64,000 bases of DNA, from contig CAKKNE010000005.1 of assembly GCA_918797485.1 (NCBI GenBank), forward strand, positions 868,001 through 932,000, read 5' to 3'. Made by a program: the position numbers and the translations under genes. Positions 2,129 through 62,836 of this stretch are shown here, piece by piece. The notes under the pieces are model-generated. The model was not told the origin of the DNA and made no database searches. It worked only from the letters and a program-made list of their open reading frames with translations. How positions within the stretch are numbered: the first letter of the stretch is position 1; every line of letters starts with the position of its first letter. This DNA comes from Pelagomonas calceolata (taxonomy: Eukaryota; Sar; Pelagophyceae; Pelagomonadales; Pelagomonadaceae).

Positions 2129-2151
2129 GCTAGCGTCCACTTACACACTAG
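2129..2151. promoter_or_regulatory. GCTAG palindromic upstream element, copy 1
   Basis: GCTAGCG on one side, CACTAG on the other. It lies between divergent genes, 215 bp from the 1914 start and 103 bp from the 2254 start. Confidence 0.6.
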
Positions 2152-2253
2152 GAATTAGCCCAGGGACCTCAATTGCCAGCGTAGAGGTCGATAAATAAAT
2201 CCTCGCCGCGTCGGGATCAACACAGCACATCGCTGCGACAAACTAGAGCAGTC

Positions 2254-3390
2254 ATGTTCGGCCTCGTCGAGCCGGAAGGCCTCAAGACCCTCGAGGCCAT
2301 GGGCTTCCCCCGCGACGCCGCCAAGGCCGCACTGACGGCGCACAACGGCGACGTAGCGGCGGCCGCGCAGCAGCTCTCGCAGCCGTCCGTCGAGGACAAG
2401 TGCCGATCGATAGCATCAAGACTCGCCAAAGCCGACGCGGCCGCGGCGGCCGAGGTCGCAGAACTCCTAACGAACGTGGCAGCGAACCCGCGCGACCAGC
2501 GCCACACCATCATCCTGTTAGGAGGCACAGCACCTCTACAAAGCGCACTGCGGGCCGGCCAGAACGCCGGCGTCGAGTTATTGATAGAGGCGGGCTACCG
2601 GCGCCACGACGCCTCGACGTTGTCGTTGACGCGGGCCGATCCCGCTAGACTGTACGCTGCTAAAAGCGCTTTGGACGCGGCCCGGACGTCGTCTCCTGGA
2701 AGACAAGGCAGAAACAAAGCGTTACAAGCCCAAGCGTCGCGAGAGGCACGTGCAGCGGCCGCAAAGTCCTTTGCGTCCGTCCAGGAGCCGCGCGGCGGTT
2801 GTGTATTGACCTTCGCCGACGGTTCGGGCGCGAAGTTCGCCACGCGTCGATTTGATGGTGATGATACCTTAGATCGGGTCGTGCGGTTTCTAGCGACTTG
2901 TGAGGTAGGCTGTCCTCCCGACGGCGACGGGTGGCGCGTCGTGGCGGAGACGACGCCGCCCTCGTTCTGGTGCGACGGCTGGGTCCTGAGCGATAAGACG
3001 ACGCGCGACGAGCAGATCTTCACCGTCAAAGATTTGCCGCGGACGCTGCAATCTTTACAGTTGTGGCCGTCGGCTACTTTGGTGGTGGAGAGTGCTGATG
3101 ATGATGTAGTCTTAACCAAACCACAACGCGTGCGGCCGCCGTCTCCAACAAAGGGCCACCGCCTCGGCCCGAAGCCCAAGCCCTCGGATCTGTTTAAGAG
3201 GGTCACGGCGCGGCACGACCCTCGGGACCTGTCTGGCGCCGACAAGCCGCGCGGGAGGGTCGCCGTGAGCGCGGACAAGGTCCCTGGTCTGGGCCGGCTT
3301 CTGGCGATGGGCTTCCCCGAAGCGAAGGCGCGCGACGCTCTCAGGAGGGCGAACGGCGACGTGAACGCGGCCGTGGCCGCGTTATTGTAA
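2254..3390 (+). CDS. UBA-PUB-UBX-UBA protein, probable Cdc48/p97 cofactor
   Basis: 378 aa with four readable modules. A UBA domain comes first (about residues 4-42, MGFPRDAAKAALTAHNGDV). A PUB/PUG-like domain follows (about 55-135, ELLTNVAANPRDQRH then LQSALRAGQNAGVELL). A UBX-like beta-grasp domain covers about 170-290 (CVLTFADGSGAKFATRRF, then DLPRTLQSLQLWPSATLVV). A second UBA lies at the C-terminus (about 340-378, LLAMGFPEAKARDALRRANGDV). UBX and PUB domains both dock on Cdc48/p97 and UBA domains bind ubiquitin, so it is probably an adaptor feeding ubiquitylated clients to Cdc48. It converges on the SDR gene with only 10 bp between stop codons. Confidence 0.8.
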   Translation: MFGLVEPEGLKTLEAMGFPRDAAKAALTAHNGDVAAAAQQLSQPSVEDKCRSIASRLAKADAAAAAEVAELLTNVAANPRDQRHTIILLGGTAPLQSALRAGQNAGVELLIEAGYRRHDASTLSLTRADPARLYAAKSALDAARTSSPGRQGRNKALQAQASREARAAAAKSFASVQEPRGGCVLTFADGSGAKFATRRFDGDDTLDRVVRFLATCEVGCPPDGDGWRVVAETTPPSFWCDGWVLSDKTTRDEQIFTVKDLPRTLQSLQLWPSATLVVESADDDVVLTKPQRVRPPSPTKGHRLGPKPKPSDLFKRVTARHDPRDLSGADKPRGRVAVSADKVPGLGRLLAMGFPEAKARDALRRANGDVNAAVAALL

Positions 3391-3400
3391 TTTATTATTG

Positions 3401-4366
3401 TTAAGCCTGGTAGGCGGTCAGAATGTTCACCTTCGGCACGAAGCCGAGCTCCTCGCGCACGAGGGAGTTGTCGTAGAGCGAGTCGCGCTCGTGGCCCGGT
3501 TGTTCGTAATGGGAGAAGTCGATGTGCGCCACCGCGTCGGCGCCGTAGGTGGCCCGCATGACCTGGGGCACGGTGCAGCCGTCGGCGACGAAGGCGTGCT
3601 CCGCCGTGACGTTCATCTGGCGCACGCCGGGCTTGAATTCCTCCTTGAGCGCGGCGAGGCAGAGGCACTCGACCATGTCCGAAATCGCGATCGCCGAGAT
3701 CGCACTCTCGGGGCTGTAGCCCTCCGGCGAGTTCGTCCCGTCGGCCGGCGCGATCGGGATCTCCTTGCCGATGCCGGTCTCGAGGTGGCGTGGCGGGCCG
3801 TCGCCCGGGTCCGTGAGGCAGCAGCCGATGCGGAGCATAGTGACGTCGAGAGGCTCCTCCGGATCCTCGCGTTCGTAGCGGGTAGCGATGAAGCGGACCA
3901 ATTGCTCCATTTGCCACTTCGAGAGCGCATACGCCCACGGGTAGCCGACGTACGGATGGGTGTCAGCCATGGGCAGGTGTTGTGGCGGGAAGCCTCTGCC
4001 GGTGCCAACGGTAGATATAGAGCTCGCTACGACGAAGCGCTTGCAGGCTGGGTCACCGCCGGGCGGCGCGAGTGCGTCGAGGAGGCGCCGCGTGCCTTGG
4101 ACGTTTACCTCGAGGCAGTCACCGAGCTCGCCCCAGCCGGCCACCGCCGCGAGGTGCACGCAGCAGTCGATCTCGCAGACGTCAAAATCATTCAATTTTT
4201 CGAGCCCGGCGCCCGTCGCGAGGTCCGCGGTGAGGCTTGTTACGCCGGCGACCTCAGTCTTGCGGCGCGCCAGGCCGACGACTTTCTCGCCGCGTTTGAC
4301 GAGGGCCTCGCACAGTTTGCCGCCGAGCCAGCCCGTCGATCCAGTGACCAATATGGTTTTGACCAT
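3401..4366 (-). CDS. Extended short-chain dehydrogenase / NAD-dependent epimerase
   Basis: 321 aa. The N-terminal Rossmann motif TGSTGWLGG (residues 8-16) and the catalytic Y146-ALS-K150 pair place it in the extended SDR (epimerase/3-beta-HSD-like) family. HLAAVAGW and VNVQGTRRLLDA fit the usual positions of the fourth beta strand and following helix. There is no evident targeting peptide, so it is probably cytosolic. The substrate cannot be read from the sequence. It starts divergently from the classical SDR gene at 4703, and the two share a 336-bp promoter region with an AAAACGGGTTT element. Confidence 0.8.
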   Translation of the reverse strand: MVKTILVTGSTGWLGGKLCEALVKRGEKVVGLARRKTEVAGVTSLTADLATGAGLEKLNDFDVCEIDCCVHLAAVAGWGELGDCLEVNVQGTRRLLDALAPPGGDPACKRFVVASSISTVGTGRGFPPQHLPMADTHPYVGYPWAYALSKWQMEQLVRFIATRYEREDPEEPLDVTMLRIGCCLTDPGDGPPRHLETGIGKEIPIAPADGTNSPEGYSPESAISAIAISDMVECLCLAALKEEFKPGVRQMNVTAEHAFVADGCTVPQVMRATYGADAVAHIDFSHYEQPGHERDSLYDNSLVREELGFVPKVNILTAYQA

Positions 4367-4514
4367 TTTTGAGAGGAGTTACGCCACGTCGCGACACTTG
4401 CGATGCTTTGCGGTTGATAACTGGCGCGACGGCGTGCCCTCGGTCGGTCTCACACTCAAAACCGACGGCAAAATGAGCAGGCCGGCCTTTTTTCCTTTAA
4501 TTCTTTTTGTCTAT

Positions 4515-4526
4515 AAAACGGGTTTC
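4515..4526. promoter_or_regulatory. AAAACGGGTTT upstream element
   Basis: AT-flanked CGGG core between divergent SDR genes, about 150 bp from one start and 180 bp from the other. Similar words occur at 13827, 44599 and 46624. Confidence 0.35.
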
Positions 4527-4702
4527 CCAGGCGCAAAAATCGGGCGCAGATGGCCATTGTAGCCTTTAGAGATCGATTTTTTGCTTGATTCGCATCACTG
4601 TGGCACTGGTGCGTCCCTCTGCTCGCGCTGGACGACTCTTGGCGCAGTGTTACCGGCTCCACCGAGTGCTGCTGCAGCCCTGCAGCCAAGCGGTGCCGCG
4701 AG

Positions 4703-5578
4703 ATGATGCGATCAGTCATCCTTCTCATAGCAAGCGCACTGGCAGCACCGAAACAGCACTCCAATGCCGCCGCGCGCATACGTCGCGCCGCTCGAAACCG
4801 CGCGGCCGCTGACGTCGGCATCGACCTGCTACCACTACAAGGCAAGCTCGCAATCGTGACCGGCGGCGGCCGCGGCATCGGCGCAGCTGTGGCAAGAGCG
4901 CTGGCGCAGCGAGGCTGCCGCGTCCTGATCACCTACCGAAGCAACGTCGACGCTGCGGCCGACACAATGCTCTCGCTCCCTGGAGACGGCCACGACGCGC
5001 GGCAATGCGACGTGACGGATGCCGACGCCGTCGCGCAGCTCTTCGAGGACCTCGGAGAGAGCGTTGATATTGTCATTAATAATGCCGCGATATACGAAGA
5101 GTCTCATTTCCTCGACAGCACGTTTGACGACTGGCAACGAGTATGGCGCGATACAATCGATGCGAATCTGGTCGGCCCGGCCAACGTCATATTCCACGCG
5201 GGGCGAAGTATGGCGCGACGCGGCGGCGGCGTTATCGTGTGCGTGAGCAGTCGCGGGGCCTTTAGAGGCGAACCCACGGCGCCGGCCTACGGCGCGAGCA
5301 AAGCGGGCCTCAACCAGCTCTCGCAGAGTGCCGCCAAAGCTCTGGCTCCGTCGAATGTTGTTGTAGGCGTCGTGGCCCCGGGCTTTGTGGACACGGCGAT
5401 GGCCGCCGAGGTTTTGAATGGAGAGAGAGGAGACGCCATCCGCGGCGACAGCCCGTTCAACAGGGTCGCGAGCGCCGACGAGGTCGCCGAGGCGGTCCTC
5501 TACTTCACTCATACAAACGCGAAGTGGAGCTCCGGCGCGATCATCGACGTGAACGGTGCGAGCTATCTAAGATCATAA
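4703..5578 (+). CDS. Classical SDR oxidoreductase (FabG-like) with N-terminal signal
   Basis: 291 aa. The N-terminus MMRSVILLIASALAAP is a hydrophobic signal or first part of a plastid presequence. The classical SDR signatures follow: TGGGRGIG cofactor loop (53-60), NNAA, catalytic Ser in VCVSSRGA, and YGASK active-site Tyr/Lys. VAPGFVDTAM is the usual nucleotide-contact segment after the active site. It reduces or oxidises a carbonyl/hydroxyl with NAD(P); a 3-oxoacyl reductase role is possible but unproven. Its stop lies 3 bp from that of the convergent SPRY gene. Confidence 0.82.
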   Translation: MMRSVILLIASALAAPKQHSNAAARIRRAARNRAAADVGIDLLPLQGKLAIVTGGGRGIGAAVARALAQRGCRVLITYRSNVDAAADTMLSLPGDGHDARQCDVTDADAVAQLFEDLGESVDIVINNAAIYEESHFLDSTFDDWQRVWRDTIDANLVGPANVIFHAGRSMARRGGGVIVCVSSRGAFRGEPTAPAYGASKAGLNQLSQSAAKALAPSNVVVGVVAPGFVDTAMAAEVLNGERGDAIRGDSPFNRVASADEVAEAVLYFTHTNAKWSSGAIIDVNGASYLRS

Positions 5579-5581
5579 ACA

Positions 5582-6112: not shown

Positions 6113-6329
6113 TGTTGCTTTCTTTTTCAAGCTCAGTCGGTGACGCTAAAGCAATCGCGGCGACTTGGTTGTCACAGCTGCTGGGAGAGCAGTTATTTAT
6201 GCGTGGGCGCGATTGTGAAGCGTTGCAATGCTACTAGCCGTCGTAAGAGTGTCGGGTGGCTGCCTGCGAATGCAAACACGCACGTAACCGGTCGTCGAGG
6301 GACAAAAGTTTGGGCAAAAAACAGCAGCT

Positions 6330-6354
6330 GCTAGCGTGCTGTAAAGACACTAGC
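6330..6354. promoter_or_regulatory. GCTAG palindromic upstream element, copy 2
   Basis: GCTAGCG, spacer, GACACTAGC; 218 bp upstream of the SPRY gene start and next to a MITE-like repeat. Confidence 0.6.
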
Positions 6355-6364
6355 ACAGCACTTT

Positions 6365-6449: not shown

Positions 6450-6553
6450 AGGTTACCCTCAAAACGCGCGCGGCTTCGTCGAATCGGGCTCGTCTAGAGG
6501 GCTCGTCGACGGCTTGAAGTGCAAAACTAGTATACCATTACCCGCCTCAGCGA

Positions 6554-7822: not shown

Positions 7823-7831
7823 GGGCAGCCC
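7823..7831. promoter_or_regulatory. GGGCAGCCC palindrome
   Basis: 12 bp upstream of the ATG of the LRR gene at 7844. Confidence 0.4.
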
Positions 7832-19832: not shown

Positions 19833-19856
19833 GCTAGTGCCTTACATGCCGCTAGC
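19833..19856. promoter_or_regulatory. GCTAG palindromic upstream element, copy 3
   Basis: Midway between divergent genes: 207 bp from the mTERF start and 205 bp from the EF-hand gene start. Confidence 0.6.
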
Positions 19857-21057: not shown

Positions 21058-21080
21058 GCTAGCGGCTGTGAGACACTAGC
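21058..21080. promoter_or_regulatory. GCTAG palindromic upstream element, copy 4
   Basis: GCTAGCGGCTG, then GAGACACTAGC; 179 bp upstream of the 21259 start. Confidence 0.6.
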
Positions 21081-21258: not shown

Positions 21259-22113
21259 ATGCGGCGCCTGCTGTGGTGCCTGCTCGGGTGGGCGGCCGCG
21301 CGCGCCGACACGAACACCACGCGCCAGCGCCTCAGCGTCCTGCCGAAGGCCTGGCTCTTCGGCTCGGCCGACGACCGCCTGAGGAAGAAGCGTGTCGCGC
21401 TGCTCATGGCGGGCAATGTGAGGACGCACGACAGCTGCGCGCCGTCCATACGAAAACACCTGCTCGAGCACAAGTACAACGACCGCTGGCGCTTCGAGGT
21501 CGTGGCGCTCGCGTACAAGGAGCGCTTCGGCAAGGCCATCCACAAGGACGCCGTCTCCAAGACCTGGACGCAGGGCAAGGACGTGACCGACCTAGATATC
21601 CGGAAACATTATATGACGTGGCCCTGCCACGTCAAAATTGTGGACGAAGAGGCCGTCAAGAAGTCCATCAAGAAGCCGCCGACGTCGCCGCACTTCGCGC
21701 GGTTCACGTACATGTTCCGCATGCTCCGGGACACGTACGTGTTCATGGACTCGCTAGGAACCTTCGACGGCGTCGTGCGGTTCCGGTTCGACTTGAAATT
21801 ACTCGCGCCGTTCAAGCTACACAACTTTGAATGTGATAAGTGTGTTGTGGTTCCTGGTCGCATGCAGCCGGGCCCGGCGGCGATGCACCTCGGGACGAAC
21901 TGTGGCGGCGGCAGGCTCTGGGTCCAGGACCACGTCGCATATGGTGGTAGGAACGCGATGCGCGCCTACTTCGTGGACACTTACGAGAAGTATGATCGGG
22001 GGGGCCGGCCGCCGCGCCAGAAGCAGGTCGAGGCGCATTTAGCGTCTGTCCTGAAGGAGAAGGGCGTCGCCGTCAAATGCGACACGTCGATCAAGTACAC
22101 GATCGTTCGGTAA
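21259..22113 (+). CDS. Secretory-pathway glycosyltransferase-like protein
   Basis: 284 aa with a cleavable-looking signal peptide (MRRLLWCLLGWAAARA). RVALLMAGNVRTHDSC begins an alpha/beta domain, and ARFTYMFRMLRDTYVF then GVVRFRFDLKLLAPF resemble the nucleotide-sugar region of uncharacterised algal glycosyltransferases, where an R-x-R-x-D-type motif follows a Tyr-rich helix. The assignment is tentative because no DXD motif is clear. It probably acts in the ER or Golgi lumen. The stop is 12 bp from that of the convergent MYND gene. Confidence 0.55.
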   Translation: MRRLLWCLLGWAAARADTNTTRQRLSVLPKAWLFGSADDRLRKKRVALLMAGNVRTHDSCAPSIRKHLLEHKYNDRWRFEVVALAYKERFGKAIHKDAVSKTWTQGKDVTDLDIRKHYMTWPCHVKIVDEEAVKKSIKKPPTSPHFARFTYMFRMLRDTYVFMDSLGTFDGVVRFRFDLKLLAPFKLHNFECDKCVVVPGRMQPGPAAMHLGTNCGGGRLWVQDHVAYGGRNAMRAYFVDTYEKYDRGGRPPRQKQVEAHLASVLKEKGVAVKCDTSIKYTIVR

Positions 22114-24160: not shown

Positions 24161-24183
24161 GCTAGTGTCTTACAGCCGCTAGC
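24161..24183. promoter_or_regulatory. GCTAG palindromic upstream element, copy 5
   Basis: Between the divergent MYND and Sec61 gamma genes, 164 bp and 188 bp from their starts. Confidence 0.6.
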
Positions 24184-26308: not shown

Positions 26309-26334
26309 GCTAGCGTGCTGCAAGACATACTAGG
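26309..26334. promoter_or_regulatory. GCTAG palindromic upstream element, copy 6
   Basis: 42 bp upstream of the helicase start; one of the closest spacings in the window. Confidence 0.6.
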
Positions 26335-26515
26335 AAGCAAATTTTGCGTTCAGTCCTACTCAGCCTCCCTCCGGATTCCACATACGCCGAAGGTATCGCG
26401 CAGACCAGCCACGGCGTCCTCCGAGGCGGGAGCACCCGGCGCGACCACCGCCCCGTTCGACGCCCGGACGAATAAGCTAAGATAATTACAAAACAACAAA
26501 ACGCCGTCGCGCAGA

Positions 26516-27980
26516 TCACACGAACGGCGCGAACAAGGACGCCCGGTGCGCGTCGGGCGGCCGCAGCGACGCGTCGAGGGGCGGCCACCGCTCGTCCCAG
26601 TCCTTGCATTTTGGCGTGAAATTCGCCATCGTTGCGTCCGTGAACGACGCGCGCCCCGCCTGCTTCTGGTCGAGGGCGTACAAACACTTCGCCGCGCAAC
26701 TTTGCGGCGGCGACGCGAAGGACTTGCGATGGAGCACGTACTGCCACCACCAGTCCTGGGCGCACTTGTGGCCGCCCCATCTCAAATCCACTTCGTCGGA
26801 CTCCCTGTAAGCAGCATGTTTCTGGCAGTGCTTGCCGGGGCAGAACCAGGGCCTGCGTGGACGGACCCGTCGCGGTCCGAACGGCCTTAAAATCGGAAAA
26901 GAGACCACCCCCCGCCTTCTCTCCTGGAGACGACGCGCGTCGATGGCGTGAAACCGCCGCAGACCCCCAAACCGTTGAGATACAAGACACCGATGTCTGC
27001 TTCGGAGGCATGTTAAAATGCACATATTTCAGCTTGCACGTCCGATGGCTGACGGAGTACAAATTCTTGTTTTGTAGTGCAAAAAAGTGTTCCGCGAAGC
27101 CCTGGTCCGTGAAGCCCGCGCCCATGCCCTCCCAGGGCGACGCGCCGATGCGGAAGCGCCTTCGGCCCGTTTGCGCTTTCCGCATGGCCCAGGCGTGCGG
27201 TTTGTAGGTCGTAACGTTGTAGGCATTCAATCCGAAGCGCGCGCCACTCGGTGGCGGCGTCGTGTGATTCGCCAACCAACCAAGAGCGTAGATCCTTCGC
27301 TTGTTGCAAATCGCGCCGCCGCCGCACACGCGATACAGTTCATTTGATAATGAGTCCCACGTCTCTTGTGACGGATAGGCCAAGAAAAACGCCGTGAGGA
27401 TGGGCGTGCCCACCGTCTGCTGCGCTAATGCGACGGGTTGTGCCTGACAGACGTCGTCCGTTTCTGGCCAACACCGGTCCCGTTCATCAGCATCTGTGGA
27501 AGACAGGGCGTTGCCGCAGGACGCTTTGTTTACGAAGAGATGCCTCAGAGAACCGACCACAATCGTGTCCGTGTCCAACAGGAGTACCTTGTCGTATTCC
27601 GTCAGCGTGAAAATGTAATATTTCCGCATCAATAAATAGTCGCCGAACAGCTTGGAACGTTTCTTATCGCCGAAGTCCATCTCCTTCGGTATTATATCGT
27701 TCTCGACCAGGGATACTTTGAGCTGTGGTGGACACGGTTTATCTACCAGTGCGACGAAATCCGCATCAGGTATGTTCCCGTACTGGCGGACCGTGGCTCG
27801 CAGTACTAACACCGCACAGAGCGAAGGACCGCTTGCGCAGGCCTCCGTCGCCTTGCCAGCTTTCACGCTTCTAGGGCTCCATCCATCAGCTTTGCCTGAT
27901 GGTTTGGTCGTGAGGAGCACGGCGACGGCGTCCTTCGCTGCTGCATGGTGCAGCGCTGCGAGGAGGAGGAAGCGGCGCAT
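26516..27980 (-). CDS. GT8-like (glycogenin-type) glycosyltransferase, secretory, with one intron
   Basis: A signal-like N-terminus (MRRFLLLAALHHAAA) precedes a GT-A domain: FGDYLLMRKYYIFTLTEYDK, then VLLLDTDTIVVGS with the DXD metal/nucleotide-sugar motif, and TPILTAFFLAYPS. After KYVHFNMPPKQTS the frame becomes noisy, while a Cys-rich C-terminal region (RRPWFCPGKHCQKHAAYR, GHKCAQDWWWQYVLH, CAAKCLYALDQ) continues in another frame to the stop at 26516. A short intron inside 26853-26990 joins them in phase. Two models work: 26853-26964 (112 bp) or 26924-26990 (67 bp), giving 450 or 465 aa. The acceptor sugar is unknown. Confidence 0.72.
26853..26990 (-). other. Intron region of the GT8-like gene, carries the introner hairpin core
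   Basis: Contains GTTTCACGCCATCGACGCG on the minus strand, the same core seen in the introners at 31400, 35787 and 37685. The exact splice sites are not decided by the sequence alone. Confidence 0.55.
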
Positions 27981-28060: not shown

Positions 28061-28082
28061 GCTAGTATGTTAGTACCGCTAG
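28061..28082. promoter_or_regulatory. GCTAG palindromic upstream element, copy 7 (diverged)
   Basis: GCTAGTATGTTAGTACCGCTAGG; 81 bp from the GT8-like start and 235 bp from the divergent beta-helix gene. Confidence 0.5.
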
Positions 28083-28316
28083 GTCAAGCGCCGCACACAC
28101 AAAAGCGGCTTATACGCTTGCGCAGCGACTGCATTAGTCGCATTCGTGCAGCGACAGCGCTGCAGCTAGCGCTGCGGCTCTCCGTCGGCTCTCAAGCCAA
28201 GTAGGCACAAGGCGCCTCTCAAAGAGCAGTCAATACTGCGCGCGCGGCGCGATAGCAACCGCGACAGGCCGCTCTCGGTCAAGCGCTCGTCGTCAAGCGC
28301 TCGTATCCATAAAAAG

Positions 28317-30239: not shown

Positions 30240-30263
30240 GCTAGCGCCATGTAAGGCACTAGG
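30240..30263. promoter_or_regulatory. GCTAG palindromic upstream element, copy 8
   Basis: GCTAGCGCCATGTAAGGCACTAGG; 159 bp upstream of selenoprotein K and 324 bp from the divergent gene at 30587. The rest of this 505-bp gap holds nothing else I can name. Confidence 0.6.
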
Positions 30264-34681: not shown

Positions 34682-34704
34682 GCTAGTGTCCTACGGACGC
34701 TAGC
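34682..34704. promoter_or_regulatory. GCTAG palindromic upstream element, copy 9
   Basis: GCTAGTGTCC, then GGACGCTAGC; 175 bp upstream of the second MFS gene, between two genes in the same direction. Confidence 0.6.
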
Positions 34705-34878: not shown

Positions 34879-36429
34879 ATGACAGCCGAAGGCATCCAAG
34901 CCGCCCACGACGCCGCCGTGCTGCGAGCAGCTTTATTAGTGGGCGTCGGCGGCGTCGCCTGGGGTCTCGATCTCGGCGCGGTCTCGGGTGCGTTGGAGGG
35001 CGCGCGACACGACCTGAACCTCTCGAGCCAGCAGACGGCGCTGGCCGTCTCCATATTTGGCCCCGGCGAACTCATAGGAGGCCTGGCCGCGGGCCTCATC
35101 GGGGACCGCTTCGGCCGCGTCAAATCACTGATGCTCTCGGCACTCGTGATCGTCATCATGGCTTTGACTACAGCCGTGGCACCTTCACCACAAGCTCTGA
35201 TCGCGTGCCGCTTCGGCGCGGGCATTGGTGCTGGTTTATCTTTCGTGGCGCACATCGCCTGGGCGTCGGATATCGCACCAATAGGACGGTCCGGCTCGCT
35301 GACGTCGTGCTTCGAGCTGGCCGTGTGTGGTGGCTTTTTGGCCACGTTCGCCGTCTTCGCGTCAGGTGCTATAAAGTGGCGCGGGCTGTTTCTGCTGCCC
35401 GCGGCGCCGGCGCTGCTGGAGTTTATTTTACTTACAAGAGCGCCGGAGAGCGCCCCGTGGTCTCTGGTCGTGAAAGGGCCCGAGAGTGCGAAGGCCGCCC
35501 ACACAGATTTATATGAGAGGTGGGCCTCCACAATGGTCCCGCCCTACGAGCCGCAAGCGGAAAAACTACCCGGCGTCGCCTCCTGGGCCGAATGCCACTA
35601 CTGGTGGCCGGCGGCGGTCGCGTTCGTCGTGCAGTCGTTTCTGACATTCTTCACGGGCGGGTTTACGCTCTTCATCTTCGTGGTGGAAATCATCGAGGCG
35701 GCGGGCGGGTCTAGAAGAGCAGCCGGCGTCATCGTCGTGCTTTTTGGTGTGGCTAAATTACTCGCGACGCTGGGCGTTGTCACCGCCTGTGTGGAAATCA
35801 AAATTTTACGGCGCGTTCACGCCATCGACGCGACGCCTGCTCGATGGCGCCACCCGACACGCTAATTGATTTCCACACAGGTCGCCGCGATCGACGACAC
35901 CGATAGGAGACCGCTCCTCGCCGTGTGTTGCGTCGTGCTGGCGCTCGCGAACGGCGCCTTCTCGCTCGTTTTTTCGTCATCGAAGCCGTCGCTGACGCTG
36001 GCCGCCGTGCTGGTCATAGTGATGGCCACTGCCTTTCCCCCGGCGTTCGGGGCGCTGAACTTCGTGCTGCTCGGCGAGTTGTTCCCGCCGGCCGTGAAGG
36101 CGCGACTTGTATCACTAGAGATGCTTCCTGCGGCGTTTTTCAAGTTCCTGGCGACGTACGGTACTTCCAGAGCCATCGACAAGGGCGACCTCGTGCTCTT
36201 GTTCGCATTCCAAAGTACCGTGGCGGCGCTCGGCGCGCTCGTCGCGTGGGTAGCGATGCCCGAGACGCGCGGGCGCACCCCGCGGCAGATTCGATCGGCG
36301 CTGGTCGGTCGCCCGGACGACGGGTCCCCGGTCCCGTCGCGGGCGGCATCGCTAGCAGGGAGCCCCCGGCGGAGCGGGTCGCCGCGCCCGCGGCCGCTCG
36401 CGCGCCCGTCGTCGGTCGGTATGGTGTGA
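34879..36429 (+). CDS. MFS transporter, split by an introner
   Basis: Exons 34879-35778 and 35881-36429 join in phase 0 and give 482 aa. Helix 1 carries GVGGVAWGLDLGAVSGAL, the helix 2-3 loop is GDRFGRVKSL, and CRFGAGIGAGLSFVAHI matches helix 4 of sugar porters. LLTRAPESAPWSLV stands where PESPRWL normally is, so the motif is diverged. After the introner come ALNFVLLGELFPPAVKARLV and a C-terminal MPETRGRTP motif. It is related to, but clearly different from, the upstream MFS gene; the substrate is unknown. Confidence 0.8.
35787..35880 (+). mobile_element. Introner element 2 (94 bp)
   Basis: Terminal repeats CTGTGTGGAAATCAA and TTGATTTCCACACAG are exact complements. The 8-bp duplications are GTCACCGC and GTCGCCGC (7/8). 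The intron is 35779-35880, with the GT donor in the left duplication. The core GCCATCGACGCGACGCCTGC then TCGATGGC forms a hairpin. Confidence 0.9.
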
Positions 36430-37411: not shown

Positions 37412-38988
<1,577 letters not shown>

Positions 38989-39077: not shown

Positions 39078-39179
39078 CGGCAGCAGGACCTGGTCTTCTG
39101 CGCCACGCCTGGCCCGCGTGGCCCGCGTGGACGGTGGTAATTGCCGCGCACCGCGCCGCGTCCAGCGCTGCTGTGTTTT

Positions 39180-39203
39180 CTAGTGTGTCTTACTGGCCGC
39201 TAG
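39180..39203. promoter_or_regulatory. GCTAG palindromic upstream element, copy 10
   Basis: CTAGTGTGTCTTAC, then GGCCGCTAGCG; 192 bp upstream of the katanin-like gene. Confidence 0.6.
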
Positions 39204-39256
39204 CGCGCGGATTTCCTAAACGCGACGACGGGCGGCAGGAAAAAAACACAGTAGAC

Positions 39257-40951
39257 TTAACTCACCTTGAGCGCCTTCATCGCCGCCGCGTACCGCGCGG
39301 AGACGGCCTGGAGCCGTTCCTGGCCAGCGAGGCGCGCCGCGGCGGCCGCCGACGCGTCGCGCCCGGCCGCGCGCAGGTCCGCCTCGCGCGCGGCCGCGTC
39401 GGCGATGTCGGCCAGGATCGGGTTCGACTCCGCCAATTGCTCCCGTAATAATGAAGACGCCGCGGCGTCGCCGCGCTGGGCCGCGCTAGAGAGCTCTATG
39501 GAGAGAAACAGCACGAGGAAGTTGCGAATCCCGAACCCGCCGCACCCCGGCCGCGGGAGCTCTCTGGCGGAGCACACTCGTTGTATAAATTCCAGGAACG
39601 GCGCCTCCTCGTTCGCATTCGATTGCAGGATCGGCCTCGTAAAGATCTGCAACAGCACGTCGTCGCCCTGGACGTCCACCAGCACGCGCTCGCGCACCCA
39701 GCCCACGTACGTCTTCTCGTCGAAGCGGTCGCCGAGCATGAGGTGCACGTTGTAGTACCTCGATAAGGCGACGGCCTCCGCGAGAGCTTTAACGTGAGGC
39801 AGGCCACCCAACGCTTCTGCCGCCTTCTCAGCATCACAGTCTAGCGCCACGACGCCCGCGTCGTCGACCAAGCCGTTACTCAGAAGGCGCTCGTAGGCCT
39901 CCGAGGCGTCGTCCACCCTGGCGCGTTCGGCGAGCACGTCAGCTGAAGCCAGGTCGCCGTAGTACGACCGCGGCACCGCTAAGAACGCGAGACCTTCCCC
40001 ACAACACCGCCTAATAAGATTGGCCCGGCGCACGACCATCAGCAAATCGTCGACGCGCGTCGCGACGTGCTGCACGCCGTTGCCCAATTGATCCAAGAAC
40101 GACGCGACGTGGCCCGCGTCCGACAGCGCGTTGTTCACCGGCAAGAAGACCGACCGGTCGGAGGGCCCCGCGACCGTGCTTTCAATCACCGCGTCTCCGG
40201 CCGCAACGACGCCGGAGGCAAATTCGACCTGCGACTCGTACCCCAGGCAGTCGCCTAGCGTCTTCAGGAAGCCCTGGCGGTTGTGGACGTTCGAGACCCA
40301 GTGGTCGGGTTTTGCCTTGATTGACTGCGAGAAGTCCGGGTCTCTCCATGTAAGGCCGGGCAGTTCATCTCCTTCCACGAAGCGCAACACGGTCCCAAAA
40401 TCCGGTCCGTCTCCGTCGTAGTACGCGTAGGCCTCGAGCATGCCCTCCTCTTTCGTTTTTATTAACGCGGGATGCGTCTCCAGGTACGAAGCGTGTACAT
40501 CATCAACAGTCGTCTCGCCGACGCAGCGGAAGGCCAGACACCCGACGGAGGCGCGGCCCGCGTTCGCCTCTCGGGCTTCAGCCCATCTTTCATGGCAAGC
40601 CCAGGCCGGGCCCTGTCCACCAGGTCCCGTGATCACGAATGTCGACGCGTCGTCGTCCTGCGACGCGGCGACGACGACCGACGTCGCGCAGTGGGCGACG
40701 ACGCGCCACTGGAGGGCCCAGAGGAGCTGGGCGACGACGTCGCGGTTCGTCGAGTCGAAGACGCGCTCGTCTTCCTCTTGTAATGTGGCGCACGCCTGAC
40801 TTGCGCGTGTCTCGACGGCCGCGTAGGTCTCCACCGGTGCGACGGCATCGGCGAAGATCTGTACGTGGTCGAAGCGCAGGTCGAGCGGCCGCGGTGCGAG
40901 TGCTGCTGCTGGCGTGCAGCAGAGCAGGAGCACGGCCACGGCTCCTCGCAT
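39257..40951 (-). CDS. 4-hydroxyphenylpyruvate-dioxygenase-like enzyme with N-terminal signal
   Basis: 564 aa. The signal-like N-terminus is MRGAVAVLLLCCTPAAALAP. Two vicinal-oxygen-chelate domains follow. The three iron ligands of the HPPD/HMS family are all present: H217 in PDHWVSNV, H295 in GNGVQHVATRVDD, and E454 in FLEFIQRV. The C-terminal GCGGFGIRNFLVLFLSIE matches the family's substrate-pocket lid. HPPD makes homogentisate for tyrosine breakdown and tocopherol/plastoquinone. The chain is about 170 residues longer than typical HPPD and the N-terminal domain is unusual, so the substrate may differ. Confidence 0.78.
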   Translation of the reverse strand: MRGAVAVLLLCCTPAAALAPRPLDLRFDHVQIFADAVAPVETYAAVETRASQACATLQEEDERVFDSTNRDVVAQLLWALQWRVVAHCATSVVVAASQDDDASTFVITGPGGQGPAWACHERWAEAREANAGRASVGCLAFRCVGETTVDDVHASYLETHPALIKTKEEGMLEAYAYYDGDGPDFGTVLRFVEGDELPGLTWRDPDFSQSIKAKPDHWVSNVHNRQGFLKTLGDCLGYESQVEFASGVVAAGDAVIESTVAGPSDRSVFLPVNNALSDAGHVASFLDQLGNGVQHVATRVDDLLMVVRRANLIRRCCGEGLAFLAVPRSYYGDLASADVLAERARVDDASEAYERLLSNGLVDDAGVVALDCDAEKAAEALGGLPHVKALAEAVALSRYYNVHLMLGDRFDEKTYVGWVRERVLVDVQGDDVLLQIFTRPILQSNANEEAPFLEFIQRVCSARELPRPGCGGFGIRNFLVLFLSIELSSAAQRGDAAASSLLREQLAESNPILADIADAAAREADLRAAGRDASAAAAARLAGQERLQAVSARYAAAMKALKVS

Positions 40952-41063
40952 TGTGATAGAATTGTTCCTAGCTATCGTGAGTGCATGTTCGCGATCCCTG
41001 GCCTAATTTTGGGTCGCGCTTGCAGTGCTTGCGTGTTGTGAGCTGTTTGCACCCCAGGCATCC

Positions 41064-41086
41064 CTAGTGTCTTACAGGACGCTAGC
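41064..41086. promoter_or_regulatory. GCTAG palindromic upstream element, copy 11
   Basis: CTAGTGTCTTACAGGACGCTAGC; 113 bp upstream of the HPPD-like gene. Confidence 0.65.
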
Positions 41087-47511: not shown

Positions 47512-47534
47512 GCTAGCGGCAGTAAGACACTAGC
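47512..47534. promoter_or_regulatory. GCTAG palindromic upstream element, copy 12
   Basis: Midway between divergent genes: 167 bp from MDP-1 and 179 bp from the RAP gene. Confidence 0.65.
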
Positions 47535-52919: not shown

Positions 52920-53417
52920 CTAGTGGACAATCGCCGTCGCCTTCGCGACGGCGGCCCGGCCGCCCTCCGCGAGGACATCCACCATCTTCTGCGCCGCCGG
53001 CATGGCCACGTCCATGACGCCCATGACCACGTCGCGCGGCAGGAGCGCGACGGCGCCCGCCACGACGGCGCCGACCAAAGCGAGGACGCCCAGGAAGCCC
53101 AAACCAGTCGACTTCGCCTGGGCTTTCTTCGCCCGCGGCGTCATCGTTTTAGTGGGCGGCGGCGGCGGCACGGGCGTCGCCGGCGCGTTGTAGGCCGTCA
53201 TCCTGTATTCGGGCGCCCCTCCAAGCCGCTTGAACAGCAAGTTCTTCCAGCAGGCGCGCACGCCGGCCTGCGTCAGCGTCTCGTCCGTGACGTAGCGGTC
53301 GAGCTCGTAGACGGCCTTGAGCTCCGACAGCGAGCCGAAGGCTTCCACGATGCGGTCGGTGGTACCCTCGTCAAATCCGTCGCAGAACTCCCTCAATTCT
53401 TCTTCCTCGTCGCTCAT
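52920..53417 (-). CDS. Small membrane-anchored protein of unknown function
   Basis: 165 aa from MSDEEEELREFCDGF; an ATG two codons earlier is possible. The N-terminal 80 residues are acidic and helical (IVEAFGSLSELKAVYELDRY, VTDETLTQAGVRACWKNLLF) and could form a SAM-like helical bundle. After a Pro-rich linker (ATPVPPPPPTKTMTP) comes one clear membrane helix (LGFLGVLALVGAVVAGAVALL) near the C-terminus. No known family is recognised. Confidence 0.6.
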   Translation of the reverse strand: MSDEEEELREFCDGFDEGTTDRIVEAFGSLSELKAVYELDRYVTDETLTQAGVRACWKNLLFKRLGGAPEYRMTAYNAPATPVPPPPPTKTMTPRAKKAQAKSTGLGFLGVLALVGAVVAGAVALLPRDVVMGVMDVAMPAAQKMVDVLAEGGRAAVAKATAIVH

Positions 53418-53606: not shown

Positions 53607-53626
53607 GCTAGTGTCTTACGCCGCTA
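53607..53626. promoter_or_regulatory. GCTAG palindromic upstream element, copy 13
   Basis: GCTAGTGTCTTACGCCGCTA; 190 bp upstream of the 53417 start. Confidence 0.6.
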
Positions 53627-53827
53627 CCACACGAGTATTCCCAATATGGGGCGTGGCGATTGTCAAGGGTCGGGCCGAGTGTCTACTGGCTTTGTTGGAA
53701 TGTACAGTACCGAACGCGTCGCCGCGGTCCAAGGTCGCCTGCGGGAAGTCGCGGGACAAGTTGATTGAACGGGCGAACGTTGCACATTGTTCGGGGGGGT
53801 TTGCCGAGGCGGTTCAGCTTAGAAGGA

Positions 53828-53941
53828 GGTACGCTGTTATGAAAGAAGCGGCCCGCGCCCGCCGCCGATGAATCGGCGACGCGCGGTGTCTCCCCCCCAG
53901 CCCTGGGCAGGGGCTCCGCCCACTAGTCCTAGCACCGTAAC
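53828..53941 (+). repeat. MITE-like dispersed repeat, copy B (114 bp)
   Basis: Almost identical to the copy at 20937, with an extra 10 bp in the C-rich part. The left end GGTACGCTGTTATG and right end CACCGTAAC are imperfect inverted repeats; the hairpin CGCCGAT-GA-ATCGGCG is in the middle. Confidence 0.65.
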
Positions 53942-53997
53942 ATCGAGACCGAGTATTCCCAAGGCGCCCCGCGGGCCCGAAGGCCGCAGCCCGGGAC

Positions 53998-54144: not shown

Positions 54145-55038
54145 CTATCCCTTGGGCAGGATCGGCTTGGACACGAAGCCCTCGTGCGCGTTCGCCTCCA
54201 CAAGAATCCCCCGCGCCGCGCACCGCTCGCGCAGCAGCGCCGCCGCCGCGTCGTAGAGCGCCTCGTCGTAGACGTCCTCGTAGGCCGTCAGGTTCGCCAT
54301 CGCCGCGGCGCGCTCGCGTTTCGTGTACTGGTGCCGCGCCTGCGCGCTCTTGACCAGCTCGGCAGAGCTCGTCGCGTTGAACTCCGCCAACGCGAGCTGC
54401 ACGCTCGCGCTCCAGTGGTCCTGGACGCCGACGAAGCGAAAGTCCTCCTCTAAACGGCGGATCGCCTCCCTACTCATATCCGGCGTCACGTCCACCGCCT
54501 CCCCGCAGTGTATCCCAAGAACCATTTTTGTCTGGCAGTGCGCGATGCCCGGGTAGCGCGCGTAGGCCTGAATCGTCGGCATCGCCCGCCTCAGGCGCCG
54601 CCGCGCGGCCCAGCCCGACCGGTTCTTTTCCGGGTGGCCGAGGGGCAGCATGGGATGGCCCACCTCCCGCAACCCGAAGAACCACGCGCTCGCGAGCCGC
54701 GCCCGCGGCGATCTTATTAAAGTGACCGCGGTGCCGACGCCGTGCCTCGCCCTGATATACGGGCTGTGCGTGTGCGAGCCGGCTCCGAGCGCGTAGCTGC
54801 ATGCGTCTGACCATTTCCTTACGTTTCTTCGCTTGGGCTGCTCGGGGCAGGCCGCGGCCGCCAGCGTGGTGCCAAATGCCGTGCCCGTTTTTTGGATGTG
54901 CATCCAGAAAACGCAAGGCTTCGGCCCCCGGCGCGGGCAGCGGCCCCGGGCGACCTGCGGCTGTTCGGCCGGCTGCTGCGGTGCGACGGCGCTCACCGCC
55001 ATGGGTAGCAGCATGTGGAGGAGAGTTGCACGAATCAT
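54145..55038 (-). CDS. Sulfotransferase-like protein, secretory pathway
   Basis: 297 aa. Start MIRATLLHMLLPMAVSAVAP, a signal peptide or anchor. VFWMHIQKTGTAFGTTL is the 5'-phosphosulfate (PAPS) loop of Golgi sulfotransferases, and VTLIRSPRARLASAWFF the 3'-phosphate motif with Arg and Ser. The C-terminal part (VGVQDHWSASVQLALAEFN) fits the same family. It probably transfers sulfate to a cell-surface or secreted glycan. The upstream region with the first ~20 codons has been copied, inverted, at 55660-55890. Confidence 0.75.
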   Translation of the reverse strand: MIRATLLHMLLPMAVSAVAPQQPAEQPQVARGRCPRRGPKPCVFWMHIQKTGTAFGTTLAAAACPEQPKRRNVRKWSDACSYALGAGSHTHSPYIRARHGVGTAVTLIRSPRARLASAWFFGLREVGHPMLPLGHPEKNRSGWAARRRLRRAMPTIQAYARYPGIAHCQTKMVLGIHCGEAVDVTPDMSREAIRRLEEDFRFVGVQDHWSASVQLALAEFNATSSAELVKSAQARHQYTKRERAAAMANLTAYEDVYDEALYDAAAALLRERCAARGILVEANAHEGFVSKPILPKG

Positions 55039-55229: not shown

Positions 55230-55253
55230 GCTAGCGGCCTGTAAGACACTAGG
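55230..55253. promoter_or_regulatory. GCTAG palindromic upstream element, copy 14
   Basis: GCTAGCGGCCTGTAAGACACTAGG reads as the near-consensus form; 192 bp upstream of the sulfotransferase-like gene. Confidence 0.65.
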
Positions 55254-58564: not shown

Positions 58565-58599
58565 CCATGGCCACGGCTTCGGGGCGTCCGAGGCAATCC

Positions 58600-58623
58600 G
58601 CTAGCGGTCCGTAAGACACTAGC
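58600..58623. promoter_or_regulatory. GCTAG palindromic upstream element, copy 15
   Basis: GCTAGCGGTCCGTAAGACAC, then TAGC; 76 bp upstream of the EF-hand/MFS gene start. Confidence 0.65.
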
Positions 58624-58698
58624 CCTGACCTTGTCCGAGCTTTGCACAGCACTTTGAGCCGTCACCGATGCAAGCGACGATGGTTGACCAATAGAGCG

Positions 58699-60261: not shown

Positions 60262-60567
60262 GTTTTGTTTGTTGTAACTCGATCTGATTGATATCGTCTG
60301 GGAGCGGTACGGGTTTTTTCACGAGCTTGGTGTTGTTGAACTCGGCACGACGTGCTTGTACGCACGGCTTCGTACCGGTTTGTGCAAGCTTTCGATCAAT
60401 TATAGCTGCTGCCGCAGCGTCGAGAGCCGTGCGGCGCCTGGGGCAGAGCACAACTCACTGCTCTCCCAAAATACCTCACAGCCGCCAAGCCACGCCGACG
60501 CAGCGTGCAATTGCCAAGGCGCGTCCTGGCGCTGCGTTTCGCGCGGACGGCGCGAAGAGTAAGGACT

Positions 60568-61707
60568 ATGGCCCAACCATCAAAAAGCGTCGTCAAGACG
60601 GACGCGCCCATCGTCGAGAAGATGCGCAATTTATCAAAGCCGGGCGTCGCGTCGCTGGCCCAAGGCATCGTGCACTGGGCGCCGCCAGATGCCGCCGTCG
60701 AGGCCGCCGCCGCATCAACTCGGGAACCGACGAGCCACTCCTACGGCGCCGACGCCGGGCTGCCGGAGCTGAGAGCGGCTCTAGCGGACCGTTTGAGACT
60801 CAAGGGCCTCACGAATTGCGAAGTCATGGTCACGGCCGGCGCGAACCAGGCGTTTACGAACGTCGCACTAACACTGTTGGATGCCGGCGACGCGTGCGTC
60901 TTGTTCGCGCCGTACTACTTCAACCACAAGATGATGCTCGACATGCGCGGGTGTCGCGTGGTTATTGCTCAGACGGACGACGCGCTGCTGCCCACGGTCG
61001 AGGCGACGCGGAAAGCGTTAGATGGAGGCGCGAGATGCGTGGTCCTCGTAAACCCGGGCAACCCGTCGGGCGCGGTGATCCCGGAAGGGAGGCTAAGGGC
61101 CATCGCGGATCTCTGTGGTGAGAAAAACGCGTGGCTCGTCGTGGACAACACGTACGACGCCTTCGTGTACGGCGCGACGCACTCACTGGTCGAAGGCCCC
61201 CACGTCGTCAACATTTTTAGTTTTTCGAAGGCCTACGGGCTGATGGGCTGGCGCGTGGGCTACCTGGCCTACGACCCGTCGATCGGACCGCAGATGCTGA
61301 AAGCTCAAGACACGGTCGCGATCTGCGCGGCGCAGTGTTCTCAAAAAGCAGCTCTGGCGGCGTTGGAAGCGGACGTTGATGGACGGTGGACGGGCCCGCG
61401 CATCGCGGCCCTCGCCGACGCGCAGAAGAAGCACGTGTTGAAGGCGTTACAACCGCTCGGCGGCGGCGTGGGCGCGTCCGACGGAGCGATCTACGTGGTG
61501 GCCAAACTGCCGCGCGCCGACGACGAGGCCGTCGTCGAGTGGCTGGCGCGCGAGCACGGCGTCGCCGTCATCCCGGGCAGCGCGTGCGGCATGCCGGGGT
61601 TCATACGGGTCTGCTACGGAAACCTGGCGGCCGAGGCGTGCGAGGCCGCGTGCGCGCGCCTCGAGGAGGCGTGCGCCGAGCTCGCGGGCGGGGGCGGGCC
61701 TTCGTAA
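60568..61707 (+). CDS. Class I/II PLP aminotransferase
   Basis: 379 aa from MAQPSKSVVKTDAP; a longer open frame exists but begins at GTG. Fold-type I signatures are complete: SYGADAGLPELRAAL, VNPGNPSG (161-168), D193 in VVDNTYDAF (pyridine nitrogen partner), K221 in FSFSKAYGLMGWRVGY (Schiff base), and a substrate-carboxylate Arg in GFIRVCYGN. It is related to aspartate/aromatic and kynurenine aminotransferases; the amino-acid substrate is not readable. The 3' end overlaps the end of the convergent F-box/propeller gene. Confidence 0.85.
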   Translation: MAQPSKSVVKTDAPIVEKMRNLSKPGVASLAQGIVHWAPPDAAVEAAAASTREPTSHSYGADAGLPELRAALADRLRLKGLTNCEVMVTAGANQAFTNVALTLLDAGDACVLFAPYYFNHKMMLDMRGCRVVIAQTDDALLPTVEATRKALDGGARCVVLVNPGNPSGAVIPEGRLRAIADLCGEKNAWLVVDNTYDAFVYGATHSLVEGPHVVNIFSFSKAYGLMGWRVGYLAYDPSIGPQMLKAQDTVAICAAQCSQKAALAALEADVDGRWTGPRIAALADAQKKHVLKALQPLGGGVGASDGAIYVVAKLPRADDEAVVEWLAREHGVAVIPGSACGMPGFIRVCYGNLAAEACEAACARLEEACAELAGGGGPS

Positions 61708-62764
61708 TACACTTTGAATACTCGTAACAGGGGCCGAAGAGGTGCACGTAAGTACTGTCCTCACCCACTGAACTACCCGCTGGACCAAAATATGGCCCCA
61801 TGCACCATAAAAGGTTGCCGTTCAGGCAAAGACCGCCAAGCTCCTCGCCGTCCGGCGACGGGATGACTTGTAGGATTTCAGGCTCCGCGCTATCATCGTC
61901 GGGGAGACGAATCACTTGGATTTGATGGCGTTCAGAAACGTACATGGTTTTGCCACGAACTGAAATGCCACCGGGCCTATCGAAGCGAACGCGACCCCTG
62001 CCAAAGCTGCGCGAAAGGATCCCTTCGCGCCAGTTGTAAACATCGACAATATCTGCATTTCGGCGAACTATGTACAGCGCATCGCCCTGCACCGCGATGC
62101 CCCCCTGCTCTTCGTCCTGCTCAGGCCGGCCAGCCAAGGCAAACTTGCGCAGAAGCGTTCCAGTTTGATTGTCGTACACGTCAATAAAGCAAACAGTCTG
62201 TCCATTTTCGGTGCTGCGATACAAGACCAGTAGCGCATCACCGGCGAGGGCGAATGTATCGATCCAGTATGCATCAGCGATCTCGATTCTCATGAGAGAC
62301 TCGTTGTAGGCGTCTGCCTCGTCGCTATCCTCGTCTGAAGGTGGTTCTGCTAGTCGCACGCAAACGATTCGTGATTCGTCTGACAAGAGGACCCAAGCCG
62401 TACCATCGCCTCGAAGGGCAACCACCCGCGGGGTGTTGAGGTTCGTGTTTAGTTCTGCACCAGCGACGCCGTCGTTCGAGAACGTTGCGAGGCACCCGCT
62501 AAACGCCATTCGCCCGTAATTTGCAATCATCACGCCATCACCGTACGCAACGCAGTGATCGCTATACTGGAATTCTCCGATTTGCTGGCGATGCACGCGC
62601 AGCATCCCTCTGCAGCGGCGGCGCCACGCGTCACGCAACGTCTTGCTGGCCGTCGCGGCGCCAAAGCCGGCTTCGGGAGTGATAAATGAGAAGACAGTGG
62701 AGAGGACATCGTCGGACGCCAGGGCTGGATGGCTTCGCGCGCGAGCGCTGCGGGTCAAAGGCAT
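61601..62764 (-). CDS. F-box-like plus beta-propeller (NHL-type) protein
   Basis: 387 aa from the ATG at 62764 (MPLTRSARARSHPALASDD). DDVLSTVFSFITPEAGFGAA then TLRDAWRRRCRG is F-box-like. Blades of an NHL/Kelch-like propeller follow (VALRGDGTAWVLLSDESRIV, GIAVQGDALYIVRRNADIVDVYN, GISVRGKTMYVSERHQIQVIRL, GLCLNGNLLWCMG). The last ~35 residues, from SKCITKARPRPRARRTPP, are read antisense to the aminotransferase end and are probably not native: the true end or a splice site may lie near 61700-61740. Confidence 0.68.
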   Translation of the reverse strand: MPLTRSARARSHPALASDDVLSTVFSFITPEAGFGAATASKTLRDAWRRRCRGMLRVHRQQIGEFQYSDHCVAYGDGVMIANYGRMAFSGCLATFSNDGVAGAELNTNLNTPRVVALRGDGTAWVLLSDESRIVCVRLAEPPSDEDSDEADAYNESLMRIEIADAYWIDTFALAGDALLVLYRSTENGQTVCFIDVYDNQTGTLLRKFALAGRPEQDEEQGGIAVQGDALYIVRRNADIVDVYNWREGILSRSFGRGRVRFDRPGGISVRGKTMYVSERHQIQVIRLPDDDSAEPEILQVIPSPDGEELGGLCLNGNLLWCMGPYFGPAGSSVGEDSTYVHLFGPCYEYSKCITKARPRPRARRTPPRGARTRPRTPRPPGFRSRPV

Positions 62765-62810
62765 GGGTCTTTTGCAGTACTTCTGTGTGTGAGAGTGGCA
62801 AAAAATTTGC

Positions 62811-62836
62811 GCTAGCGGCATGTAAGACACACTAGG
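62811..62836. promoter_or_regulatory. GCTAG palindromic upstream element, copy 16
   Basis: GCTAGCGGCATGTAAGACAC, then ACTAGG; 47 bp upstream of the F-box/propeller gene. Confidence 0.65.

Follow-up and report, generated by a model that had tools for sequence, protein, structure and literature searches.

We find that a bipartite DNA element occurs, one copy per promoter, at about half of the promoters sampled in Pelagomonas calceolata, apparently a highly abundant marine alga. Its form and placement suggest that it may be the site of a single general promoter-organising factor, akin to the general regulatory factors of yeast (we put the probability at about 0.6). The window, a 64-kb stretch of contig CAKKNE010000005.1, holds 16 copies. 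A preliminary description had recognised these copies and suggested that they are a main promoter or transcription-factor element with a dimer-type site. Our results support such a role, still a putative one, though at only about half of promoters. Beyond that share of promoters, we add the lack of orientation preference, a preferred distance to gene starts, a flanking AT-rich zone, a CpG-poor notch locked to the element, and conservation in a sister species. No description of the element was found in the literature searched.

The element has the form GCTAGCGG-N(1-4)-GTAAGACACTAGC-AAGC and carries ~37 bits (36.7 bits for a matrix that is applied to the very sites from which it was built). The spacer is 1, 2, 3 or 4 bases long in 5, 13, 32 and 4 of 54 sites, respectively. 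Some sites have an extra AC, so that the single length of 24 bp first described gives way to a total of 22-26 bp. Conservation extends rightward into AAGC. The arms are inverted repeats, but imperfect ones, and the middle, GTAAGA, is asymmetric.

Scanning the window, with mismatches and variable spacing allowed, returned 16 sites and none in a reversed-sequence control. The set is identical to that noticed before, except that the copies placed at 39180 and 41064 begin 1 base earlier. Genome-wide, there are 867 occurrences of the exact 21-base form (0 in a backwards control) and 2,235 with one spacing and at most 3 mismatches (0 in the control). The strict half-site pattern CTAGYG-N8..14-CACTAG occurs 4,236 times, against 43 in reversed sequence. 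We estimate ~4,700-8,000 copies in the whole genome, and site density is one per about 4-7 kb. A 264-kb sample, made up of parts of contigs C1, C2 and C5, gave 65 sites scoring at least 14 bits, and 1 in its reversed control. Note that sites are denser in this sample than genome-wide (47 strict ones where 34 were expected). Given 0 control matches in the window scan and 1 in 264 kb, we reject a chance repeat. Viral contigs scanned for the element gave 0 matches, as did an Rfam search of the window at gathering scores.

The individual copies in the window are as follows, with Pfam as the source of domain names. The copy at 2129..2152 (+), which has a degenerate middle, lies between a YqaJ-like ORF (-) and a UBA-domain gene (+). 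At 19833..19856 (-), an mTERF/LRR gene (-) is 218 bp away on one side and an EF-hand gene (+) 216 bp away on the other. The exact copy at 47512..47534 (+) is 177 bp 5' of an acid-phosphatase-like gene (-), and sits inside the 5' part of a FAST-kinase-like open frame (+), past its first ATG. All three had been listed as lying between divergent genes, and our models agree. Two others on that list, 24161..24183 (-), 174 bp 5' of a MYND-finger gene (-), and 30240..30263 (+), with no nearby start in the predicted models, are not divergent in those models. The weak copy at 28061..28083 (-) counts as divergent only if frames are read by eye: a glycosyltransferase-like ORF (-), whose Pfam match is below cut-off, and a beta-helix ORF (+). 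Conversely, the copy at 55230..55253 (+), 227 bp 5' of the gene at 54145-55014 (-), is divergent but had been omitted. The CATACTAGG variant at 26309..26334 (+) is 54 bp 5' of a DEAD-box helicase gene (-), and overlaps the last codons of an open frame, 26310-27980 (-), not called as a gene in our models. The GACACACTAG variant occurs twice: at 39179..39204 (-), 203 bp 5' of the predicted ORF 38044-38988 (-), and at 62811..62836 (+), at the 5' end of ORF 61601-62875 (-), between its first and second ATG. The remaining copies are at 6330..6354 (+), with a 4-base spacer and no nearby start in the predicted models; 21058..21080 (+), 190 bp 5' of the gene at 21259; 34682..34704 (-), 186 bp 5' of the gene at 34879, by eye a transporter-like ORF; 41063..41086 (-), 123 bp 5' of the gene at 39257-40951 (-); 53607..53628 (-), 200 bp 5' of the gene at 52920-53417 (-); and 58600..58623 (+), 87 bp 5' of the predicted start of an MFS/EF-hand gene (+).

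We used home-made gene models, which are ORF calls without introns, for the 264-kb sample. These genes fill 63% of the DNA and contain 0 of the 65 sites; copies are therefore not equally frequent inside genes. The original statement, that no copy lies in coding sequence, holds for modelled genes but not for all long frames, since 7/65 sites are in an ATG-to-stop frame of 200 or more codons. The corresponding figure for random positions is 76%, although avoidance is partly automatic because CTAG brings TAG stops into some frames. Three of the 7 are in the window (26309, 47512 and 62811), and those at 47512 and 62811 come after the first ATG of the frame and before a later and likelier one. Of 127 predicted starts, 58 are preceded by a site at 500 bp or less, and for 50 of the 58 it is at -100 to -300. 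The median distance from element to predicted start codon is 201.5 bp. Counted by promoter, 62/127 have one element and 65/127 have none; no promoter has two in the 60-400 bp range. The claim that copies are strictly 5' of genes is nearly right: 9/54 sites have no predicted start within 500 bp, and 3/34 gaps between convergent genes hold a site. In the window, the sites lacking such a start are 6330, 28061, 30240 and 62811, although frames are visible by eye at 28061 and 62811.

Relative to the gene, the element is found in either orientation equally often (29:29). With a median distance of 201.5 bp to the predicted start codon, it has neither the fixed orientation nor the proximity to the start site of a core promoter element. 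Instead, occupancy of a large share of promoters (62/127) and avoidance of coding DNA (0/65 in modelled genes) are as for a general regulatory factor site. The arms could, by eye, pair as an RNA hairpin in a 5' untranslated region. We reject this, and give it next to no weight, because orientation is 29:29 despite the asymmetric middle. The same orientation ratio would suit an insulator or boundary between neighbouring genes, with no direct role in initiation, and the element is indeed intergenic and often central between closely spaced divergent genes. However, 22/33 divergent gaps hold an element and only 3/34 convergent gaps do, and its distance is tied to gene starts. An insulator is therefore improbable. 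A replication origin, or other chromosome-maintenance site lying incidentally in open promoters, is a good deal less probable still. Origins of other eukaryotes are frequently in nucleosome-free promoters, but a spacing of ~4-7 kb is much closer than origins require, and neither a single copy per promoter nor a narrowly set distance from the start codon is expected of them.

DNA flanking the element has an AT content of 0.41-0.43 out to 100 bp and of 0.36 just beyond, a step that recurs at 29 further sites. On the gene side, 140-180 bp from the element, there is a CpG-poor notch. In 62 gene-side arms, CpG in the notch was 0.78, compared to 1.14 when distances were shuffled between genes, and 0/1000 shuffles reached the observed value. 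Hence, the notch is locked to the element and not to the ATG. The 65 sites are also those on which the notch was discovered. A check at 29 others gave a CpG value of 0.98 in the notch and of 1.23 and 1.33 to either side; these 29 include 5 from the sister species and some mutual orthologs, and were pooled without regard to gene direction. Arms entering coding sequence lack a notch (CpG 1.49, 15 arms), which also counts against an insulator, as does the position of the notch on the gene side. Past ~170 bp from the element, A>T skew rises. We consider the notch probably to be a transcription start zone, a prediction from base composition, and the AT-rich zone a putative nucleosome-free region. 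A less favoured reading is that the notch is a methylated nucleosome linker. CpG spectral power at periods of 100-120 and 160 bp exceeds that of nearly all of 60 random sets, as linkers might produce, but a single notch can also generate such power. Furthermore, there is no comparable dip beyond 180 bp, arms entering coding sequence have no notch, and AG and CT increase along with CA.

The element is conserved in the sister species. Orthologous promoters there retain strong sites B, C and D in the same orientation, with D shifted by ~58 bp, as well as site A, which is inverted. No clear equivalent of the weak copy E is seen on the sister contig, and F is a degenerate copy there. Five contigs of bacterial genomes also match the element (L055-L059). 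Two of them (L055 and L058) are contaminants of eukaryotic origin, derived from a sister alga; L056 has stretches 90-96% like the Pelagomonas genome, and L057 appears to be a bacterial contig that matches by chance. The inverted ortholog, together with many near-identical dispersed copies bearing inverted terminal arms, might bring to mind a very small mobile element, or its footprint. We reject this as highly improbable: target-site duplications are absent at 3-8 bp (0/54) and no commoner than chance at 2 bp (1/54, with 2.6 expected). In addition, the element avoids genes, is narrowly placed relative to their starts, and stays at orthologous promoters.

We also compared gene classes, using 26 genes from two families. 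At the usual distance, the element is found in 9/14 proteasome genes and 0/12 light-harvesting (LHC) genes (P=0.0007), a contrast that weakens when any upstream site counts (9/14 and 3/12, P=0.06; at 13 bits or more, 8/14 and 2/12, P=0.05). Such a difference, and the half of promoters with no element, would fit a transcription-factor site of one large regulon, for example for growth, cell cycle or proteostasis. We regard this as unlikely, though it deserves more weight than the other alternatives. The genes 3' of elements carry very different domains, and ~4,700-8,000 copies are many for a regulon among 16,667 annotated genes (PMC9481584). One or no copy per promoter, a preferred distance and indifference to orientation would likewise be unusual for a regulon site. 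Codon-model score per codon did not differ between genes with and without the element (P=0.09), and there was a weak tendency to avoid GGCTGCCC (9/62 vs 18/64).

One observation against a general promoter-organising factor is that 65/127 promoters have no element. The factor might work as follows. One abundant sequence-specific protein, or a dimer, would read two inverted CTAG-type half-sites and the GTAAGA middle. Acting from the promoter centre, in either orientation, it would hold a ~200-bp zone free of nucleosomes. Transcription would then start ~155 bp from the element, toward one gene or both genes of a divergent pair. Protein binding, the nucleosome-free AT zone, the use of the notch as a start zone and hence the molecular role are what we infer from the sequence. 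More tentatively, and with the odds somewhat against it, one factor with a ~28-bp site may be a molecular ruler for about half of Pelagomonas genes, and perhaps those of all pelagophytes. The element would be the symmetry centre of the promoter, with start zones ~155 bp off (about the length of one nucleosome) to one side or to both, whatever its orientation. If so, removing the element would shift or abolish transcription starts. A ~37-bit site at about half of promoters would also make a strong example of a genome that depends on a single promoter-organising protein. How start sites are set at a promoter that lacks fixed polarity is a general question that becomes testable here. The element is, in addition, a tool for locating gene starts and designing expression constructs in pelagophytes.

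The yeast general regulatory factors Reb1, Abf1, Rap1 and Cbf1 resemble this system in that many promoters carry a sequence-specific site for them, linked to a nucleosome-free region that, for our element, is putative. Their sites are much shorter, at 7-13 bp, and several factors share the work. In Pelagomonas, by contrast, one ~37-bit site would serve about half of promoters, and the lineage is an alga. By eye, the sequence of the element looks unlike the sites of the four yeast factors. In animals, the promoter motif shared by ZNF143 and THAP11 is long, as is the Pelagomonas element, though we take the two sequences to be unrelated. THAP11 (Ronin) is reported to be tied to housekeeping genes in animals (PMC10329844). 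General regulatory factors serve proteasome genes in all yeasts compared (PMC2897762), and the Pelagomonas element is likewise at proteasome genes (9/14). Another stramenopile group, the oomycetes, has the promoter elements INR, FPR and DPEP. These are 7-16 nt long, commonest 50-100 nt or less from the start codon, prefer the forward strand by ratios of 1.8-5.9, and each occur in 7-18% of promoters (PMC3599244). The Pelagomonas element differs in lying at about -200, in its 29:29 orientation, and in its presence at about half of promoters.

The preliminary description listed 16 copies of the element, a bipartite 24-bp quasi-palindrome with two inverted CTAG-type half-sites, in the window (C5:868001-932000). 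When mismatches were tolerated and the spacer could range from 0 to 4 bases, a scan returned exactly these 16 sites and none in the control, where the sequence was read backwards. Across the genome, totalling 32,445,274 bases in 8 contigs, the exact form occurs 867 times and never in the backwards control. For the form with a 3-base spacer, and up to 3 mismatches, the corresponding counts are 2,235 and 0. The looser pattern CTAGYG-N8..14-CACTAG gives 4,236 matches against 43. We then derived a two-part matrix from sampled sites (36.7 bits; 12.5 from the left half and 24.2 from the right). In a 264-kb sample, comprising the window and two other genome stretches, 65 sites reach 14 bits or more, compared to 1 in the control. 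The three stretches contribute 16, 21 and 28 sites respectively. Since 48 of the 65 score at least 30 bits, the sites are a distinct class rather than a tail. Three extrapolations put the genome total at ~4,700 copies when calibrated with the exact form, at ~5,900 with the strict pattern and at ~8,000 from density. The assembly agrees with the published P. calceolata RCC100 genome, described as having a 32.4-Mb nuclear part in six contigs, as well as plastid and mitochondrion, with 63% G+C, 16,667 genes and 0.45 introns per gene (PMC9481584). In the window, G+C per 2 kb is 58-68% and long open reading frames abound; genes include those for mTERF, FAST-kinase-like and ferric reductase proteins.

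All copies were originally said to lie outside coding regions. For our gene models, which are coding-potential calls without introns that place 127 genes in the 264-kb sample and class 63% of it as coding, this holds; none of the 65 sites is within a gene. The computed chance of such avoidance, 6e-29, is too extreme because CTAG brings TAG stops to one or two of the three frames on a strand; allowing for this, using spacer counts, gives ~6e-12. With plain ATG-to-stop frames of 200 or more codons, 7 of the 65 sites fall inside, compared to 76% of random positions. Frames of 150+ codons contain 11 sites (82% of random positions), frames of 300+ codons contain 5 (62%), and stop-to-stop frames of 250+ contain 17 (82%).

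For distance analysis, we used the 54 sites, from 58 found by the mismatch scan, with a score below 5.2. A site is present within 500 bp upstream of 58 of the 127 predicted starts. At these starts, the element is at -200 to -300 in 25 cases, at -100 to -200 in another 25, and elsewhere in 8 (median 201.5 bp). Orientation relative to the gene is evenly split, with 29 the same and 29 opposite. Between 60 and 400 bp, matrix sites occur once in 62 promoters, are absent from 65, and never occur twice. The element is present in 22 of 33 divergent gaps compared to 3 of 34 convergent gaps. The description of placement as strictly 5' largely holds. Nine of the 54 sites have no predicted start within 500 bp; frames can be seen by eye for two such sites in the window.

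Base composition changes with distance from the element. On the arms, the flanks leading away from the 65 sites, A+T is 0.405-0.432 at 20-100 bp and then falls to 0.358. At 140-180 bp there is a CpG-poor notch, where observed/expected CpG is 0.98 (95% range 0.87-1.07), compared to 1.24 and 1.35 on its flanks. The notch value is 0.78 for the 62 arms toward a predicted start, 1.01 for 52 prediction-free arms, and 1.49 for 15 arms into coding sequence. For gene-side arms, successive 10-bp bins from 140 to 180 bp score 0.61, 0.78, 0.67 and 1.01, with mostly 1.0-1.4 either side. When distances were swapped between genes, so that the ATG stayed fixed and the element was displaced, notch CpG averaged 1.14 (sd 0.05), and none of 1000 shuffles was as low as 0.78. 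No comparable notch was seen in the ATG-aligned profile. The A+T step recurs, as does the notch, at 29 further sites taken from elsewhere (56 arms; five sister-species sites among them), where notch CpG is 0.98 (range 0.85-1.10) compared to 1.23 and 1.33 on the flanks. CG frequency in the notch drops by half, and CA, AG and CT become 1.3-1.5 times as common. Because AG and CT increase alongside CA, simple decay of methylated CpG is insufficient as an explanation. CAGC is also enriched (57 compared to 40.7 after shuffling, equalled in 6 of 1000 shuffles), and an excess of A over T increases from ~170 bp outward. We read the notch as the probable transcription start zone. Separately, CAAAAAA within 60 bp of the element is about 5 times its intergenic level (1.54 and 0.31 per kb; 10 occurrences at 54 sites).

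When contigs from bacterial genome records were scanned once for the pattern in an 18-base version, there were 5 matches. Two of the matching contigs, L055 and L058, which belong to a MAG recorded as Spirochaeta sp. MED672, are eukaryotic and 83-94% identical to the Pelagomonas genome; hence, they originate from a sister alga. L058 aligns in order along C6:2236569-2246679, and L055 at C6:477195-478027 and beyond. Eukaryotic Pelagomonas-type DNA, as contaminant contigs or a chimeric stretch, occurs in bacterial records L055, L058 and L056 (uncultured Spirochaeta MAG). L058 has four sites within ~5 kb, each preceding an open frame. We compared sites, named A to F, at orthologous promoters. At B and C orientation is conserved, with one flank partly similar and the other dissimilar. 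Orientation is also conserved at D (L055), where the spacing to the neighbouring gene's end is ~58 bp larger. At A, both species have the element in opposite orientations (L058:5351-5379 and L060:3601-3630), which may reflect inversion in place, or loss and gain, and is consistent with a function lacking polarity. Site F is strong in Pelagomonas and degenerate in the sister, where the right half is retained. Site E is weak in the sister, with no clear Pelagomonas counterpart in this comparison. All four strong sister sites (at least 27 bits) have a partner of at least 20.9 bits at the orthologous promoter. A dispersed repeat of ~156 bp, at 53777-53948 of the window and L058:299-455, has at least 39 genome matches with 80-88% identity; it may be an introner, a small transposon or an RNA gene. 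Repeat matches sit at corresponding places near the starts of contigs C1 and C5, in agreement with the duplicated extremities reported for contigs 1 and 5 (PMC9481584).

Which genes carry the element was assessed in the upstream sequence of two sets. For the proteasome, 1,500 bp was examined for the best-scoring 14 of 27 matches. For light-harvesting genes, 1,100 bp ahead of the domain was examined for 12 of 93 matches, namely ranks 1 to 13 by score without the 10th, which has internal stops. Of the 14 proteasome genes, 9 carry the element at -146 to -284 relative to an in-frame ATG (8 at 13 bits or more, and a weak one of 8.2). No light-harvesting gene has one at this distance, and three have sites at -363 to -469 (37.9, 17.7 and 10.2 bits). 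For the usual distance, Fisher's test gives P=0.0007, or 0.002 without the weak proteasome site. Several light-harvesting frames are 5'-short, so true starts are possibly farther upstream. If any site in the examined stretch is counted, the contrast weakens: 9 of the 14 proteasome genes and 3 of the 12 light-harvesting genes have one (P=0.06), and with a 13-bit cut-off these numbers become 8 and 2 (P=0.05). Hence, a preference for proteasome over light-harvesting promoters is only suggested. In yeasts, open regions at proteasome genes are reported to rely, in every species compared, on general regulatory factors (PMC2897762). Another promoter word, GGCTGCCC, read directly or as its complement, is in 24 of 66 element-less promoters of the 264-kb sample, compared to 1.7 expected from shuffles; window examples are at 7823, 10400, 21135 and 39061. 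Often 10-130 bp ahead of the ATG, it is at times farther away or within genes. Within 180 bp, it is found in 18 of 64 promoters without the element and 9 of 62 with it.

Among the literature matches listed, the element is not the subject of any title or abstract beginning, and the matches listed for a motif-string search share only the 9-mer GCTAGCGGC. The stem 'palindrom' is absent from the P. calceolata genome paper (PMC9481584). An oomycete-type core element was excluded, since those described are short, oriented and close to the start codon (PMC3599244). The element resembles sites for general regulatory factors (Reb1 and Abf1, for example) in its sequence specificity, non-polar placement, single occurrence per promoter, central place in an AT-rich zone, and presence at about half of promoters. 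By analogy, it may work like a general regulatory factor site, the likeness being one of placement.
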